NCBI GenBank assembly: GCA_028291405.1
Contig: JAQGID010000281.1
Coordinates: 1 to 64,000 of the forward strand
Source: Rhodospirillales bacterium
GTDB lineage: Bacteria; Pseudomonadota; Alphaproteobacteria; ATCC43930; CGMCC-115725
Length of the DNA: 64,000 bases
Direction of reading: 5' to 3'
A program made the position numbers and the translations under genes. The notes beneath the pieces were generated by a model. It saw only the letters and a list, made by a program, of their open reading frames with translations, made no database searches and was not told the DNA's origin. The number at the start of each line of letters is the position of its first letter. Position 1 is the first letter of the stretch. Positions 45,228 to 52,916 of this stretch are shown piece after piece.

Positions 45228-46526
45228 ATGGCGACGGCAGCAACCGCCCGTATCCTCGCGACTGGACCGCTCCGCCCCGTCGCCACCGAGGTCGCGGGCG
45301 GCTTCATCACGGTCGTCGACACGATCATCGGGAAAGGGCATCCGATCGTCGACGGCGACATCGTCGATTGGATGCTGAGCCGCGGCCGCCACCTGCCGCA
45401 TGACGGCGAGTTCTTCGACGCGCTGTGCTGGCGCCTGCTCGGCGCCGGCCTGCCGATCTCGCGCGTCTCCTTGTCGGTCTCGACGCTGCACCCGCAGATC
45501 CTCGGCTTCGGCTTCCGCTGGAACCGCGCCAAGCGGACGACCGAGATCTATCGCGTCGGCCACGGCATCCAGGACACCGCCGACTATCTCGATTCGCCGA
45601 TGCGCAGCGTCTCGGAAACCGGCCAGGCGGCGCGCTATCGCCTCGACGACGAGGCGGCGATCGCCCGCTTTCCGCTGCTCGTCGACCTGCGCAAGGCCGG
45701 CGCCACCGACTATCTCGCCTCGCCGCTGACCTTCCTCAACGGGCGGCACCAGGTGATGACCTGGACGACCGACCACGAAGGCGGCTTCACCGAGGCGCAT
45801 ATCGCGCAGATCGGGCAGCTCATGCCGAGCTTCTCGCTGGTCGTCGAGAACAAGGCGGCGCGCCGCACCACCGAGACGCTGCTCGCGACCTATCTTGGCC
45901 GCACGGCGCGCGACCACATCCTCGACGGCGAGATCCGCCGCGGCCAGGGCGAGCGCATCTCGGCGGTCATCATGGCGACCGACATGCGCGGCTTCACGGC
46001 GCTCTCCGACCGCCTGCCGAGCGAGGAGCTGATCGCCCTGCTCGACGATTATTTCGACGCCGTCACCGCGCCGGTCCAGGCGCGCGGCGGCGAGGTCCTG
46101 AAATTCATCGGCGACGGCGTCCTCGCGATCTTCCCGCTCGGGTTCAGCAGCCGCGAGGAGGCCGCCGAGATCGCCCTCGCCGCCGCCAAGGAGACGCTGG
46201 AGCGGATCGCCGGGATCAACCGCGATCGCACCGCCGCGCAACGCAGCGAGCTGCGCATCGGCATCGGGCTGCATATCGGCGAGGTCATTCTCGGCAATGT
46301 CGGCGCGGCCGACCGGCTCGACTTCACCGCGATCGGCCCGGCAGTCAACCTCGCCTGCCGCCTCGAGACGCTGACCAAGCGGCTGTGGCGCCCGCTGCTC
46401 GTCTCCGAGGCCTTCGCCAAGGCGGCGTTCTGCCAGCTCGTCTCGCTCGGGTTCCACCCCGTCAAGGGGATGAGCGAGCCGGAAGAGGTCTTTGGCCTGC
46501 CCGGCGGCGACGGCTACGATATCTGA
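45228..46526 (+). CDS. Class III adenylate/guanylate cyclase
   Basis: VIMATDMRGFTALSDRLP, GGEVLKFIGDGVLAIFP, IGIGLHIGEVILGNVGAADRLDFTAIGPAVNLACRLE: metal-binding Asp and substrate Lys/Asp positions present. Confidence 0.93.
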   Translation: MATAATARILATGPLRPVATEVAGGFITVVDTIIGKGHPIVDGDIVDWMLSRGRHLPHDGEFFDALCWRLLGAGLPISRVSLSVSTLHPQILGFGFRWNRAKRTTEIYRVGHGIQDTADYLDSPMRSVSETGQAARYRLDDEAAIARFPLLVDLRKAGATDYLASPLTFLNGRHQVMTWTTDHEGGFTEAHIAQIGQLMPSFSLVVENKAARRTTETLLATYLGRTARDHILDGEIRRGQGERISAVIMATDMRGFTALSDRLPSEELIALLDDYFDAVTAPVQARGGEVLKFIGDGVLAIFPLGFSSREEAAEIALAAAKETLERIAGINRDRTAAQRSELRIGIGLHIGEVILGNVGAADRLDFTAIGPAVNLACRLETLTKRLWRPLLVSEAFAKAAFCQLVSLGFHPVKGMSEPEEVFGLPGGDGYDI

Positions 46527-46628: not shown

Positions 46629-49352
46629 TCACGATCGAGGAGCGGAAGCCCCGGCGCGCGTGCCGACGTCAGTCTTCATCTCGGGTTCGTTTCCCCTGCC
46701 CGCGTCTGCCGGCTGATCGCCAGGCGCTTTACAAGCCGTTGCCTGCTGATCGAAGCGTTCCCTCGCGTCGAGGCGCTGTGCGGATGGCGGGCTCGTCAAC
46801 TTCGTGCTCGCCGGTCGACTCGATGTTGGCCCGACGACCTCGTGCTTGCTCGCGGGGTCGAGCGGGAAGTCCATGAAATTCGTATTCGCCTGTTGATCCG
46901 ACGTTAATCCCGCGACGGCCTGCTTGCTCGGCGGGTCGAGCGTCTCCTTCAAGCTGCGGCGGACGATGCATACAAATCCCGCCGATGTCTCACCTTCGCT
47001 GGTCCAAACGCTGACCGGAATGGTTGTGCCGTAACGATGCTCCCAGTGAACCGGGTCGGGCACGTGATCGAAGTCGGCAATGATGCCTTTCATGTTCGGC
47101 AGCACCTCGATACGCTTGGCCCGCTGCGCACCCATCGTGACGACGGTGCTGCGCCAAAGATCGCCGCCCGGGATGAGAATCCTCACGTCCTCCGTGTCGC
47201 CCTCATAAAAATACCCGAGGATATCCGGAACGTCCTCTTCTACATGTGGCACTCGGTCAACCGTATAGCCGAGCTTTCGCTGCACTTCGGCGACCGTGTA
47301 GGGAACCCGCAAACTGAACAGCCGCGCTTCGACGTGCGGACCGGGCCTGCAAACCTCAGTGGTGAAATGGGAACCGGTCAGCGACGCGTCGTCCGGAGCA
47401 ATCCAACAGGTCGTCACGTCGACGCGCAACCGACTCCACCAACTCGGCAGCGAGATGATCGCGGATAGGCCGTGCTGGACCGCCGTATGAAGAAAGGCAG
47501 GGTTTCCGCTTTGCGGATCGAAATCGGCACGAGGGCCGAGCAGCCAACCGAACTCGGCCACCGCGGGCGGCGCGGCTTCGGCGACCGTCTCGGAGTGACC
47601 GATATTTCCAAAACCGACGACGAGCGGGCGCCGATTGATCGTACCCAGCGTGCGTTGAGCCTTGCTCAAAGCGTCCAACTCCTGTGAGCCGTTGACGGCG
47701 ACTCCTTGCTGAGACATCGCGAGGAGCAATTGGCGCGACCGTACGCTTGCCGAAAGCTCGGAAATCCGCTGAACGGATTCCTTGGGCGTAACGGCATAGG
47801 CGTAGATCGGGCTGTCTTGATGTGCATCCAGCCTGTCGAAAAGCGTCCTGATCGCCGAGCCGGCAATGCAGCCGCCACCATATCTTTCGTACTCGGGACA
47901 GTCCGCATCCGGGCCTTCCGGCGACGCGCCCGTCGTCTTCATCAGCGGCTCGAGAATGAAACGGCAGTCTCCGATCTCGCAGCCGACCTCACCGACATGC
48001 GCGAGCTCCTTGAGCCGGGCGCGCAGCTCGTATTTGTCGATCATGTACTGGACGATCGCGTGCCGCAGAAAACCCCGCTCTTCCCGCGTCAAATCGCCAA
48101 TCGACGTTGCCAGGTCCGCGCAGCTCTGATGGGCGCAACCGGGCGAGGCTGAGGTATTGCCTGGGATCATTCCCGGCGGGGCCAGCAACTGGCTGGCCCT
48201 CGCCATGTTGGCCCGCCACCGCCGGTACCTTTCCCGGCTCACCGAGTCCGATTGTTCGCTCATGTAGTAGACGATCATCGGTCGTATTCTGAGGAAAGAC
48301 CGCATCTCGTCCGATGCGTAATCGGCCGGTCTTTTGATCCGCTCGAAGTATGGATCGACAGACCTGCTACTTGCGTCGGGCGCATTTCCCCATACCGAAT
48401 CGAAGCAGCGGGAAAGACCGACGAGCGACACCGGACTCCATTCGTCGCCTTTGCGGTCGGACAGACGTTCGTCGCAGAGAATTGATGTCACCGACACAAG
48501 CTCACCACGGGAAAACCCGGGTTCCACCCGACGCAAAAGAAAACGGAAGAAATCTTGCAGGTCGTCGGCATTCATCTTTCCACTGAGAAAGGCAATCTCG
48601 CGAAGCTTTAGGCTTCTCAGGAGCTCTCGTTCCGACTCGCGAATCCAATCGGCGTAGACCTTCGCCTGCCCTTCCGGCTTATCATCATTCGCGACGCGGA
48701 CGCGGAGCACCGCCCAGGCGCTCGCGCCATGCGACGGCAGGATCGTCGTGTCGAACTTGAGTCGGTAGATCGTGTTCCCGCGGATGTCGTGCCCGTCATC
48801 GAGCATCGTTTCCATCATCTCGGTCCGTACGTCCTCGCGATAAGCGAGGATATCGTGGAATAGCTCGATCGGCGAGGATACGGGCGGCTCCGGCCGCGGC
48901 GCATTGCCGTTTGCGGCACTCGTCCTTTCGGTCGGTGCGGCATCGCCGCCGGATTGGGCCGGCGGGCCGGCCTTCGGCGACTCGCCTGTTGCGGGTACGG
49001 TTTCCCGCAATGCGTTGGGCAACGTCGCCGCCCCCCTTGCCGCGATGCGCGAGTCATTGACCATGTAGAGATCAAGGATAGCCTGATCTCCGAAGACGAG
49101 TTCCTTTTCGTCTTTCTTGAATGTTCGATCCAGTTGCGTCGTGAGCCAGGCGTTTTGATCGAAGCGGTCGTTCACCAAGCGCGCGCGAGAGTAGATCTGT
49201 GGCATGTCGACGAAGATCATGCCGCCGGATGGTGACCACGACTCGATCGCGCGATACGCAGGCGGAATCGCGACGAAAGCTAAAATCGGAAGCGCCAAGA
49301 GGGCAGACACGGTCCGGTAGCCGCGTATCAAGGCAGCGAATCTTGCAAACAT
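46629..49352 (-). CDS. Uncharacterised 907-aa N-terminally anchored protein associated with the RiPP locus
   Basis: N-terminal TM (TVSALLALPILAFVAIPPAYRAIES), long soluble part with several Cys (GCAHQSC, CEIGDC, DCPEYERYGGGC). 5' end overlaps the rSAM 3' end by ~25 nt. Confidence 0.8.
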   Translation of the reverse strand: MFARFAALIRGYRTVSALLALPILAFVAIPPAYRAIESWSPSGGMIFVDMPQIYSRARLVNDRFDQNAWLTTQLDRTFKKDEKELVFGDQAILDLYMVNDSRIAARGAATLPNALRETVPATGESPKAGPPAQSGGDAAPTERTSAANGNAPRPEPPVSSPIELFHDILAYREDVRTEMMETMLDDGHDIRGNTIYRLKFDTTILPSHGASAWAVLRVRVANDDKPEGQAKVYADWIRESERELLRSLKLREIAFLSGKMNADDLQDFFRFLLRRVEPGFSRGELVSVTSILCDERLSDRKGDEWSPVSLVGLSRCFDSVWGNAPDASSRSVDPYFERIKRPADYASDEMRSFLRIRPMIVYYMSEQSDSVSRERYRRWRANMARASQLLAPPGMIPGNTSASPGCAHQSCADLATSIGDLTREERGFLRHAIVQYMIDKYELRARLKELAHVGEVGCEIGDCRFILEPLMKTTGASPEGPDADCPEYERYGGGCIAGSAIRTLFDRLDAHQDSPIYAYAVTPKESVQRISELSASVRSRQLLLAMSQQGVAVNGSQELDALSKAQRTLGTINRRPLVVGFGNIGHSETVAEAAPPAVAEFGWLLGPRADFDPQSGNPAFLHTAVQHGLSAIISLPSWWSRLRVDVTTCWIAPDDASLTGSHFTTEVCRPGPHVEARLFSLRVPYTVAEVQRKLGYTVDRVPHVEEDVPDILGYFYEGDTEDVRILIPGGDLWRSTVVTMGAQRAKRIEVLPNMKGIIADFDHVPDPVHWEHRYGTTIPVSVWTSEGETSAGFVCIVRRSLKETLDPPSKQAVAGLTSDQQANTNFMDFPLDPASKHEVVGPTSSRPASTKLTSPPSAQRLDARERFDQQATACKAPGDQPADAGRGNEPEMKTDVGTRAGASAPRS
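46785..46940 (-). repeat. Two tandem 26-aa (78-bp) imperfect repeats in the 907-aa protein tail
   Basis: LDPPSKQAVAGLTSDQQANTNFMDFP / LDPASKHEVVGPTSSRPASTKLTSPP. Confidence 0.75.
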
Positions 49353-50605
49353 GCGATGCCCTCCGAGTGTTTCGAAGTACGCCCCTCGTCTAGGCTAATG
49401 CCGCTGCCCGGCGTCGGCGCGGCGTCCATCGAGCTTCCGATCGCCGGCGGATGAGCCTTGAGATCCTCGAGCACCACATCGAGCACTGTCTTCTTGGTCA
49501 GCCGACAGTACATCGTCTCGGTGCCTTCGAAAGTGCCGAGCTCGTATAGCTTGTTGGCCGGGGCGCCGCCGCCGCACACCGAGAAATATTCGCACGTCTC
49601 CCGACAGCGCGTTACGCCGCGCTCGATCTCGTCCCGCAGCTTCCGGAAGGTCGGCATCCTCTCGATCGCGTGGAGATCGTCGTGGTGAACGTTGCCGAAG
49701 ATGAAGTTCCCGTAGTCGGCGCGGCGCTGGCCGAGCAGCTCGGGCGAGAACGTCGAGACATTGCCGGCATGGTCAATGCTCACGATCCCGAAAGGGTCGA
49801 CCTGATGGTTGTGCCGCGTCCCGCTCCCCGCCAGTCGGATCGCAGCATATGCCCCGACGAATTCGCGCACCCTCAGCCGCGCAGGACCGGTTCGGACGAG
49901 ACGCAGGAAGCGCGCCAGGAAGCTCCCGAACAGCTCGGTGGTGCCAGCCGCGCCGAGGCTCGATTCGGTATGCTCGGCTTCGATCTCCTCAATGTTGAAG
50001 CCGACATCGCCGATCTCCGCACCGACGAAGAACTCGTAGAGCTGCTCGGGAAAGTCCAAGGAGGCCCGGGTCAAGACGGTAATCACGTGAAAGGGTACGG
50101 CATGCTCCTGAAGGCAGCGGATTCCTCGCATGACTTTCTCGAACGTGCCGCCGCCCGCGCGTGTCTGACGATGCGCATCATGGAGGAACGCCGGCCCGTC
50201 GAGGCTTACCCCCAAGCGAACCTCGTGCGCCGTTAGAAAGCTGCACCACGCCTCGTCGATGAGGACGCCGTTCGTTTGGATCGAGTGGTCGAGTCCGATG
50301 TTCGGCGGCCTTCGGCTCGCTGTGACCGCGAACGCCTCGCGGTAATAGTCGACCGGCAGCGTGAGCGGTTCTCCCGCGTGCCACACCACCGTCAGCCGAT
50401 CAGATACCCAGCCGCTCTCGAACGCGCATTTCAACGCCGTGTCGAGCGTGCCCATCGACATACGCGCACGGGACGCGCGATTCGGAAGATAGCAGTAGTC
50501 GCAATTCAGGTTGCAGAACGGCGTCGGCTGCAGGACCAGAAGATCGATGCGCCTTGCTGCCTGGGGAGCGGCCAGGGCTCCGGAGAACAAATTGCGGCCC
50601 TCCAC
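49328..50605 (-). CDS. Radical SAM/SPASM peptide maturase, probable three-residue cyclophane-forming enzyme
   Basis: LLVLQPTPFCNLNCDYCYLPNR (CxxxCxxC), WHAGEPLTLP, IQTNGVLI, GNVSTFSPELLG, CRETCEYFSVCGGGAPANKLYELGTFEGTETMYC. The frame is open to GTG 50713; GTG 50605 and TTG 50623 are alternative starts. Confidence 0.88.
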   Translation of the reverse strand: MEGRNLFSGALAAPQAARRIDLLVLQPTPFCNLNCDYCYLPNRASRARMSMGTLDTALKCAFESGWVSDRLTVVWHAGEPLTLPVDYYREAFAVTASRRPPNIGLDHSIQTNGVLIDEAWCSFLTAHEVRLGVSLDGPAFLHDAHRQTRAGGGTFEKVMRGIRCLQEHAVPFHVITVLTRASLDFPEQLYEFFVGAEIGDVGFNIEEIEAEHTESSLGAAGTTELFGSFLARFLRLVRTGPARLRVREFVGAYAAIRLAGSGTRHNHQVDPFGIVSIDHAGNVSTFSPELLGQRRADYGNFIFGNVHHDDLHAIERMPTFRKLRDEIERGVTRCRETCEYFSVCGGGAPANKLYELGTFEGTETMYCRLTKKTVLDVVLEDLKAHPPAIGSSMDAAPTPGSGISLDEGRTSKHSEGIACLQDSLP

Positions 50606-50649
50606 TGCTGTGCGGGCATGCAATTCTCGACGGCTGCCAGCCGACGAGG

Positions 50650-50949
50650 CTAGTAATTCCGAAAATTTCCGTTCGGCCAGTTGCTGAAGCTGTGATCCCG
50701 CCAGTTGAACCACTGCGCTAGACTCTCGTCGGACCCCGCCGACGATTGGCTTTGACCGAGTTGCAGCAGCGATCTCACTTCATCGATTCGCTCGACCAGC
50801 GGCCTCGTGGGTTGCACCCAATCATGCGTCGGCGCCGGGGACATCGGCAAGGCCGAGACGAGACCGACGAGAATGCCGTTTAGCGCCAGATGCGTCGCAG
50901 CCTTGACCTTCTTGCGATCAGGTCCTTTTTCGCGGCCACTATCGTCCAT
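50650..50949 (-). CDS. RiPP precursor peptide with aromatic-X-N/D core
   Basis: MDDSGREKGPDRKKVKAATHLALNGILVGLVSALPMSPAPTHDWVQPTRPLVERIDEVRSLLQLGQSQSSAGSDESLAQWFNWRDHSFSNWPNGNFRNY. GGGGAG 7 nt before ATG 50949 (ATG 50964 also possible); directly upstream of the rSAM gene. Confidence 0.82.
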   Translation of the reverse strand: MDDSGREKGPDRKKVKAATHLALNGILVGLVSALPMSPAPTHDWVQPTRPLVERIDEVRSLLQLGQSQSSAGSDESLAQWFNWRDHSFSNWPNGNFRNY

Positions 50950-51231
50950 GGCATTACTCCCCATAGTATCGGAACGTTCGTCCCAAACTGGGGCCTCAAC
51001 CGAGGCGTAGAATATAACCGGCCTTTCAATGCTGTGGAAGAAAAAACCACGGGACTCAGTCCATTTTTTATTCCATCCCTTTGTGTTCTCACGAAGTTAT
51101 CTTTATTATTGGCTTTTGGTAGTACTCTCGCCATTTCTGCAATACTTATCTTCAAAGTTGATCGGAAGTTGCAGAGCGAGCAACTGGTCGGTGATCGCTA
51201 TTTGGCTACGCGCCGCCTCGTCCGGCACGCC

Positions 51232-52761
51232 CTAACGCCATTTGAGCTTGTAGAGCTCGAGGTTCCACTTGTTGTTGGAATCTTGCGGGACCGCGAGATC
51301 CCTCGCGTGGACGAAGACGCCGGGGTTGGAGGCGATCGGCAGAATATAGGCCTCGCGGTTCATGCGGTCGTGAATCCGGGCGTAGATCGCCAGGCGCTTG
51401 CCATGGTCGAGCGTCTCGCGGCCGGCCTCGACCAGCGGCGCGATCGCCGGGTCGCGCCAGGCATCCTTGGCGGTCCCGTCGAAGAACAGCTCGACGTTGC
51501 TGGCGACGTCCGGCAGGCCGAAGCTGCTCGCCGAGAGCTGGATCTTGCCGGCGGCCATCTGCTGGATATAGGCCGGGGCGGTGAGCGGGCTGACCTTGGC
51601 GCGAATTCCGACCTTGCGCAGCTCGCCCGACAGGGCCTCGGCGAGCGTCGCCATCCCGCCCGATGCCGCGATTTCGACATCGAGCCCATCGGGATAGCCG
51701 GAATCTGCGAGCAGCCGGCGCGCCGCGGCGGGATCGTAGGGGTAAGGTTTGTCGGCGACGCCGCAGTCGCGCGTCAACGGGGCGCAGAGCCCGTCGGTGA
51801 CGCGCACCGCGTCGCCGCCGGACATGACGTGATGCGCCACGGTCGCGCGATCGACCGCCTGGACGATCGCCTGCCGCACCGGCTCCTTCGTCAGCGCCGC
51901 ATTGCCGGCGCGGCCGAGCGCGTCGATCGTCAGATAACTGAACGAGGCGCCTTCGACCGCCGTCACCATGAAATCCGGGTTGCCGGCGAAGACCTCGGCC
52001 TGGTCCTTGCTCTCGGCGCGCAGGATGTCGAGCCCGCCGGTGACGAGCTGCGCCATCCGCGTCTGCGCGTCGGGAATCGAGGCGATTTCGATCGTGCCGA
52101 TCGCCGCCGCCGGCTTGCATTCGTTGCCGTGGCGATAGTCGGGGTTGCGCGCCAGCGTCACATGCTTGCCGGGATCGATCGCGACGACCTTGTAGGGGCC
52201 CGTGCCGATCGGGTGGAGGCGGCCGAAATCCTGCTTGTTCTCGTTGGCGGAGTGCAGCTTCGCCGGCAGCATGTTGCCGACGTTCGCCAGGTTGATCAGC
52301 GCCAGCGGATCGATCCTCTTGGCAACCAGCCGGACGCGGTGGTCGTCGATTTTCTCGACGCGCGCCAGCCAGGAGAAATTCTCCGGCGCGAAGCGCAGCT
52401 TGCTCGCCGGGTCGACGAAGTACCGCAAAGTGTAGACCACGTCGTCGGCCGTGAAGGGCGAGCCGTCCTGCCAGGCGACGTCCTCGCGCAAGGCGAACTC
52501 GGTCGTCAGATCGTCGATCTGCGTCCAGGATTCCGCCAACAGCGGGGCAAAGCTCGCGGTCTTGATGTCGTAACAGGCGAGGCCGTCGTAGACCGCCTCG
52601 TTGACGAGATCGGTCTCCGGCTGGGGGTTTTCGACCGAGACCGTGGTGTTGGTCTGACCCGTCGTCGCAACGCGCAGCGTATTCTTCGCCTTCTGCGCCT
52701 GCGCCGGAGCCGCCAGCAGCACCGCAACGGCGGCGGCCAGCGCGGCATCGACAATCCTCAC
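51232..52761 (-). CDS. ABC transporter substrate-binding protein, family 5 (peptide/opine/nickel type)
   Basis: KNTLRVATTGQTNTTVSVENPQPETDLVNEAVYDGLACYD...FALREDVAWQDGSPFTADDVVYTLRYF; GTG 52761 precedes a clear signal peptide. Confidence 0.92.
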   Translation of the reverse strand: MRIVDAALAAAVAVLLAAPAQAQKAKNTLRVATTGQTNTTVSVENPQPETDLVNEAVYDGLACYDIKTASFAPLLAESWTQIDDLTTEFALREDVAWQDGSPFTADDVVYTLRYFVDPASKLRFAPENFSWLARVEKIDDHRVRLVAKRIDPLALINLANVGNMLPAKLHSANENKQDFGRLHPIGTGPYKVVAIDPGKHVTLARNPDYRHGNECKPAAAIGTIEIASIPDAQTRMAQLVTGGLDILRAESKDQAEVFAGNPDFMVTAVEGASFSYLTIDALGRAGNAALTKEPVRQAIVQAVDRATVAHHVMSGGDAVRVTDGLCAPLTRDCGVADKPYPYDPAAARRLLADSGYPDGLDVEIAASGGMATLAEALSGELRKVGIRAKVSPLTAPAYIQQMAAGKIQLSASSFGLPDVASNVELFFDGTAKDAWRDPAIAPLVEAGRETLDHGKRLAIYARIHDRMNREAYILPIASNPGVFVHARDLAVPQDSNNKWNLELYKLKWR

Positions 52762-52916
52762 CCTTTCCTCCCGTCGCGGTCGCGAGTCCTGAGCCCGTCT
52801 TCCGACGATGCTACCCGGCACTGGCGGCGACGTCGACGCGCCAGCCGGTTGTATTAAATGTTATGCACCGAATTTATGTTGATGCGTTTGTCGCATTCAC
52901 GCGATAGCGTCCCGCC

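Follow-up and report, generated by a model that had tools for sequence, protein, structure and literature searches.

Gene content of the locus

We analysed a three-gene locus of a Rhodospirillales bacterium (assembly GCA_028291405.1), located on the minus strand of contig JAQGID010000281.1; the window is the stretch of DNA analysed here, i.e. the first 64,000 nucleotides of that contig. The genes are tightly packed and encode, in this order, a precursor peptide, a radical S-adenosylmethionine (SAM)/SPASM enzyme and a protein of 907 residues. An initial annotation of this DNA had assigned the locus to the three-residue cyclophane (triceptide) class of ribosomally synthesized and post-translationally modified peptides (RiPPs), and the three open reading frames (ORFs) were all found where it had placed them. 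The peptide ORF codes for 104 residues (50650-50964). Its best ribosome-binding site, GGGGAG, fits the second ATG (50949); thus, the precursor probably comprises 99 residues (50650-50949). The maturase gene (49328-50713) has an uncertain start. The ORF of 461 residues begins with the GTG at 50713, which creates a 64-base overlap with the peptide gene, and a GTG at 50605 is the other candidate. The gene of the 907-residue partner (46629-49352) starts with an ATG at 49352, just after a GGAGGG sequence, and it overlaps the end of the maturase gene by 25 bases, which bears out the overlap described initially. The locus contains neither a transporter gene nor a peptidase gene.

The enzyme matches the Pfam Radical_SAM domain (E 1.2e-15) and contains a CNLNCDYC motif. 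Comparison with curated profiles gave 448 bits for TIGR04261 (GrrM/OscB), whose cut-off is 310, over profile positions 1-362 of 363. The second-best match, AmcB (NF041718), reached 304.7 bits for a cut-off of 425, and hence the locus does not belong to the AmcA/AmcB group. The profile of anaerobic sulfatase maturases (TIGR03942) yielded 166.5 bits (cut-off 349), and the enzyme falls with neither these nor the quinohemoprotein maturases. By sequence, it is thus a GrrM/OscB-type maturase, in line with both the proposed class of three-residue cyclophane-forming enzymes and the suggestion that Grr and Amc systems were the nearest. The cysteines that are invariant across 18 GrrM sequences are C67, C71 and C74 (CX3CX2C) together with C370, C374, C380 and C403; the latter four would fit one auxiliary iron-sulfur cluster. 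The source genome harbours a single copy of grrM.

The precursor is built of a signal-like N-terminus (KKVKAATHLALNGILVGLVSALPMSPAP), a leader motif (VERIDEVRSLL) and a core (QWFNWRDHSFSNWPNGNFRNY; 50650-50712, minus strand) with five [WF]-x-[ND] motifs in the last 24 residues: WFN 85, WRD 88, FSN 93, WPN 96 and FRN 101 in the numbering of the 104-residue ORF. As many as five such motifs arose in 64 of 100,000 shuffles of the tail (0.06%) and never in 100,000 shuffles of the whole protein. OscB joins the C7 of Trp to the beta-carbon of Asn or Asp, and the C4 of Phe to the beta-carbon of Asn (PMC11002830). All five motifs of the core fit this specificity and lie within the published OscB substrates. 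Therefore, GrrM would probably staple the side chains of the peptide into up to five rings, chemistry that is itself of a known kind.

GrrA-type precursors also precede GrrM in other loci, as the initial annotation had anticipated for homologous loci. They have a hydrophobic signal-like N-terminus, a short R[IL]xxIR-like leader motif and an aromatic-x-Asn core. A profile built from 12 precursors of other loci ranked the peptide first among the 503 ORFs of the window (E 4.8e-10), and it again came first after the core had been removed from the profile (E 8.7e-4). With its signal-like N-terminus, R[IL] leader motif, aromatic-x-Asn core and a gene directly 5' of that of GrrM, the peptide is by architecture and homology a GrrA-type precursor, placed outside the curated TIGR04260 model. 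Ordinary export by means of the signal-like N-terminus is plausible, which would account for the missing dedicated exporter. Neither this N-terminus nor the existence of relatives of the partner had been noted initially.

The 907-residue partner has a transmembrane (TM) helix at residues ~14-32, a GCEIGDC sequence (residues 457-463; GCx4C), a conserved polar stretch (LDDxHDxxGNT) and a disordered tail from residue 800. A positive charge precedes the TM helix, and hence the bulk of the protein is predicted to lie outside the cytoplasm. Fold searches with models of the partner returned matches to tandem Ig-like and IPT/TIG folds only, the E values starting at 6e-4. The better-modelled segment, residues ~720-800, resembles the IPT/TIG-type beta-sandwiches of EBF, CSL, plexin and Bacteroides SGBP-B, a hint that such a domain may be present there. 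One short, weak match in PHROGs to a family of unknown function was discarded.

Homologues of the partner and other GrrA-GrrM loci

Five other loci encode a homologue of the partner downstream of GrrM. These loci are found in an alphaproteobacterial metagenome-assembled genome (L016, the same contig as in genome G428), in genome G228 (L084), in a contig labelled Nitrospinota, whose three-gene layout is that of the window (L017), and in Rhodospirillaceae (L036) and Rhodobiaceae (L060) contigs. The gene order is precursor, GrrM and partner, with a protein of 181-251 residues, of unknown family, encoded between GrrM and the partner in three of them (L016:7152-7907, L084:7613-8368 and L036:7133-7678); no such protein was seen in L017 or the window. 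The genes overlap or nearly touch, and the loci come from different families and, going by their labels, from two phyla. An N-terminal TM anchor and GCx4C are present in all five GrrM-linked partners that are long enough to be assessed (window, L016, L084, L017 and L036). This recurrent linkage argues that the 907-residue protein is not a chance neighbour; it is probably the dedicated partner of the peptide outside the cytoplasm. The cyclophane chemistry is known, and what is new is a previously undescribed, recurrent family of partner proteins.

Relatives of the partner that are not linked to GrrM are rare. Three of them are large lipoproteins homologous to it over the N-terminal region and residues ~510-760, encoded by plasmid pMAO6 of Vibrio sp. 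MAO6 (L011:6564-9137; BFG51036.1) and by genomes G774 (L101:7244-10072) and G795 (L102:7603-11343). The others are a truncated copy adjoining an IS21-like element (L094, in G435), a decayed copy (L126, in G1145) and a fragment in G432. In contrast with the TM-anchored partner of the window, the three lipoproteins start with a lipobox; they are devoid of GCx4C, as is L094. No peptide-GrrM pair is encoded near the unlinked relatives, and no GrrM above the cut-off was found in G774, G795, G435, G1145, G432 or pMAO6, with weaker matches only in G432. G228 and G428, which carry linked homologues, both have GrrM.

We compared the locus (L088) with those in which GrrA and GrrM have other neighbours. 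It shares with the cyanobacterial Grr/Osc systems (TIGR04260/TIGR04261/TIGR04262) a maturase above the family cut-off, a precursor of the exported type whose leader motif is the same, a Trp/Phe-x-Asn/Asp core and a nearby gene for a predicted extracytoplasmic partner. However, its core is rich in Asn and not in Gly, and GrrP (TIGR04262), a small solute-binding-like protein with homologues in 19 cyanobacterial loci, is absent and replaced by the unrelated 907-residue anchored protein. In three Bradyrhizobium-type loci (L018-L020), a multi-pass membrane protein of 624-665 residues occupies the place of the partner, and L021 has a split relative of it. The precursors of these four loci (L018:5664-5945, L019:5719-5964, L020:5700-5945 and L021:5548-5796) have a single terminal ...KIAQWRN(R) sequence, i.e. 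one possible cyclophane, adjoining GrrM and the multi-pass protein.

In four further loci, GrrA and GrrM end nSTAND1 operons (L040:561-7299, L056:828-8316, L071:375-8213 and L080:2216-8313). They directly follow an nSTAND1 NTPase with one TM helix and ~400 residues beyond it; where the gene before that of the NTPase was read, it codes for an EAD1- and/or TIR-like protein. The operons of L056 and L080 also code for a patatin (a PADLOC effector match in L056), and L071 has an EAD1-trypsin on the other strand. Finally, a conjugative plasmid of Phaeobacter carries grrM and a GrrA-type precursor annotated as hypothetical (L130:228-1231; WP_123618948.1), with an upstream gene for a 220-residue protein that has a signal-like start and no family. 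GrrP, the multi-pass protein and the nSTAND1 NTPases have in common that each is a membrane or exported protein encoded next to a peptide of the exported type. Profile-profile alignment with hhalign detected no homology of the 907-residue partner to the multi-pass protein of Bradyrhizobium, the C-terminal part of the STAND NTPases or the 251-residue intervening protein.

FxsA/FxsB and other radical SAM peptide modules that belong to VMAP/STAND conflict systems (PMC7159879) similarly combine a radical SAM-modified peptide with larger partner proteins. The window differs from them in that its maturase scores 117 bits with the FxsB model, far below the cut-off of 370, and in that no VMAP, vWA or metallopeptidase gene was seen.

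The distribution of the locus is patchy. Among 39 genomes of the same family, 11 have a GrrM above the cut-off, and the partner is present in the source genome only. In G038, of the same genus, the neighbouring glnD-like and cyclase genes are kept and the locus is absent beside them. The GC content of the locus in the window is 0.55-0.64, compared with 0.63-0.71 in the flanks. These observations fit horizontal gain or patchy retention of the locus.

Possible function of the partner and alternative explanations

We consider it rather likely that the three genes form a cyclophane RiPP operon of the GrrA/GrrM type, the third of them coding for a dedicated envelope partner. GrrM would bind the leader in the cytoplasm and link C7 of Trp or C4 of Phe to the beta-carbon of the Asn or Asp two residues further on, generating up to five three-residue rings, and the ringed peptide would be exported through its own N-terminal signal sequence. 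The partner, which is translated along with GrrM, has one N-terminal helix as its anchor and probably contains stabilizing disulfides, would meet the ringed peptide in the periplasm and bind or display it. By analogy, it would most likely serve as a receptor or scaffold for the peptide, in the place held by GrrP in cyanobacteria.

Several observations weigh against this interpretation. The precursor of the window has no match in NCBIfam at E 1, including GrrA (TIGR04260; cut-off 31 bits), a model with which the precursors of the nearest loci score 30.4 bits (L016; E 4.6e-7) and 23.5 bits (L084; E 6.5e-5). The partner, which the initial annotation called uncharacterised, has no family match in Pfam, NCBIfam or PADLOC and none in a sequence-profile search of the PDB; at the thresholds used, it represents a new protein family by sequence. 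AlphaFold2 models are poor, with a mean pLDDT of 51 for the full protein and 48 for residues 420-800. Since no partner domain was recognized with confidence, the term receptor derives from gene order, predicted topology and the analogy with GrrP, a protein for which, to our knowledge, no role has been proven either. In addition, the partner-linked GrrM enzymes do not form one clade on the best tree, although a single origin was not rejected (p-AU 0.11). Lastly, L016, L017, L036 and L060 are metagenome assemblies, and the contigs of L036 and L060 end within the partner gene.

Other roles have to be weighed against that of an envelope partner. Antibiotics such as darobactin and dynobactin are small aromatic peptides that are exported and carry side-chain rings, and the peptide could likewise be an antimicrobial triceptide, with the large protein as an immunity or export-assisting factor. 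The patchy distribution of this accessory locus, which is missing at its site in G038 and marked by a GC dip to ~0.61 against 0.66-0.71, would agree with this. We nevertheless find it unlikely, as the locus lacks genes for a transporter or a peptidase, immunity proteins are usually much smaller than the partner, and the GrrM-less relatives of the partner exist as lone lipoproteins. Similarly, the four loci in which GrrA-GrrM directly follows an EAD1/TIR-like and nSTAND1 pair, together with the earlier prediction of radical SAM-modified peptides in conflict systems (PMC7159879), suggest a parallel in which the locus would sense conflict or envelope stress, with the ringed peptide as the sensed or gating element and the partner as the sensor. 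However, the partner of the window has no NTPase or effector domain and no PADLOC match, and its profile has nothing in common with the STAND C-terminus, so that a sensor also seems an improbable role.

It is more doubtful still that the large protein processes the exported peptide, either by cleaving off the leader or by additional tailoring. The protein matches no family of proteases or oxidoreductases, and its unlinked relatives have no peptide-GrrM pair nearby, even though the absence of a peptidase gene, the predicted extracytoplasmic topology and the presence of the conserved LDDxHDxxGNT and GCx4C sequences would suit such an enzyme. As for an ordinary two-gene GrrA-GrrM locus with a chance neighbour, the restriction of the partner to the source genome while 11 of 39 genomes of the family have GrrM could be taken in its favour. 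We rejected this explanation as having almost no likelihood, because the same gene order recurs in the five other loci, in different families and two phyla by label, and because homologues of the partner are otherwise rare.

We know of no settled biological role of Grr cyclophane peptides, and none was found in the literature searched. If the third gene does encode an envelope partner, its dedicated, recurring and otherwise rare ectodomain is a concrete candidate binding partner for such peptides. The fact that different partners, nSTAND1 NTPases among them, accompany one type of peptide-enzyme pair suggests a role as a receptor or in a conflict system. More tentatively, GrrA-GrrM might be a portable module that makes cyclophane peptides for export, which would serve as the dedicated ligands or gating elements of membrane or periplasmic receptors. 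The receptors would be interchangeable: GrrP in cyanobacteria, the multi-pass protein in Bradyrhizobium, nSTAND1 NTPases that are membrane-anchored and have TIR/EAD partners in other Rhizobiales, and the 907-residue protein in the window. In that case, the triceptide would act as a signal or an immune-type component rather than an antibiotic.

Flanking features

The locus is flanked by a convergent adenylate cyclase-like gene (45228-46526, plus strand) and, upstream, by a gene for a family-5 solute-binding protein (51232-52821, minus strand), with no permease gene seen adjoining the latter. This protein was rejected as a substitute for GrrP because the genome encodes ~17 near-full-length paralogues of it. 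A weak promoter-like site is located 5' of the precursor gene (51011-51038, minus strand); it matches at 9 of 12 positions, and ~1 such match is expected by chance in the region.

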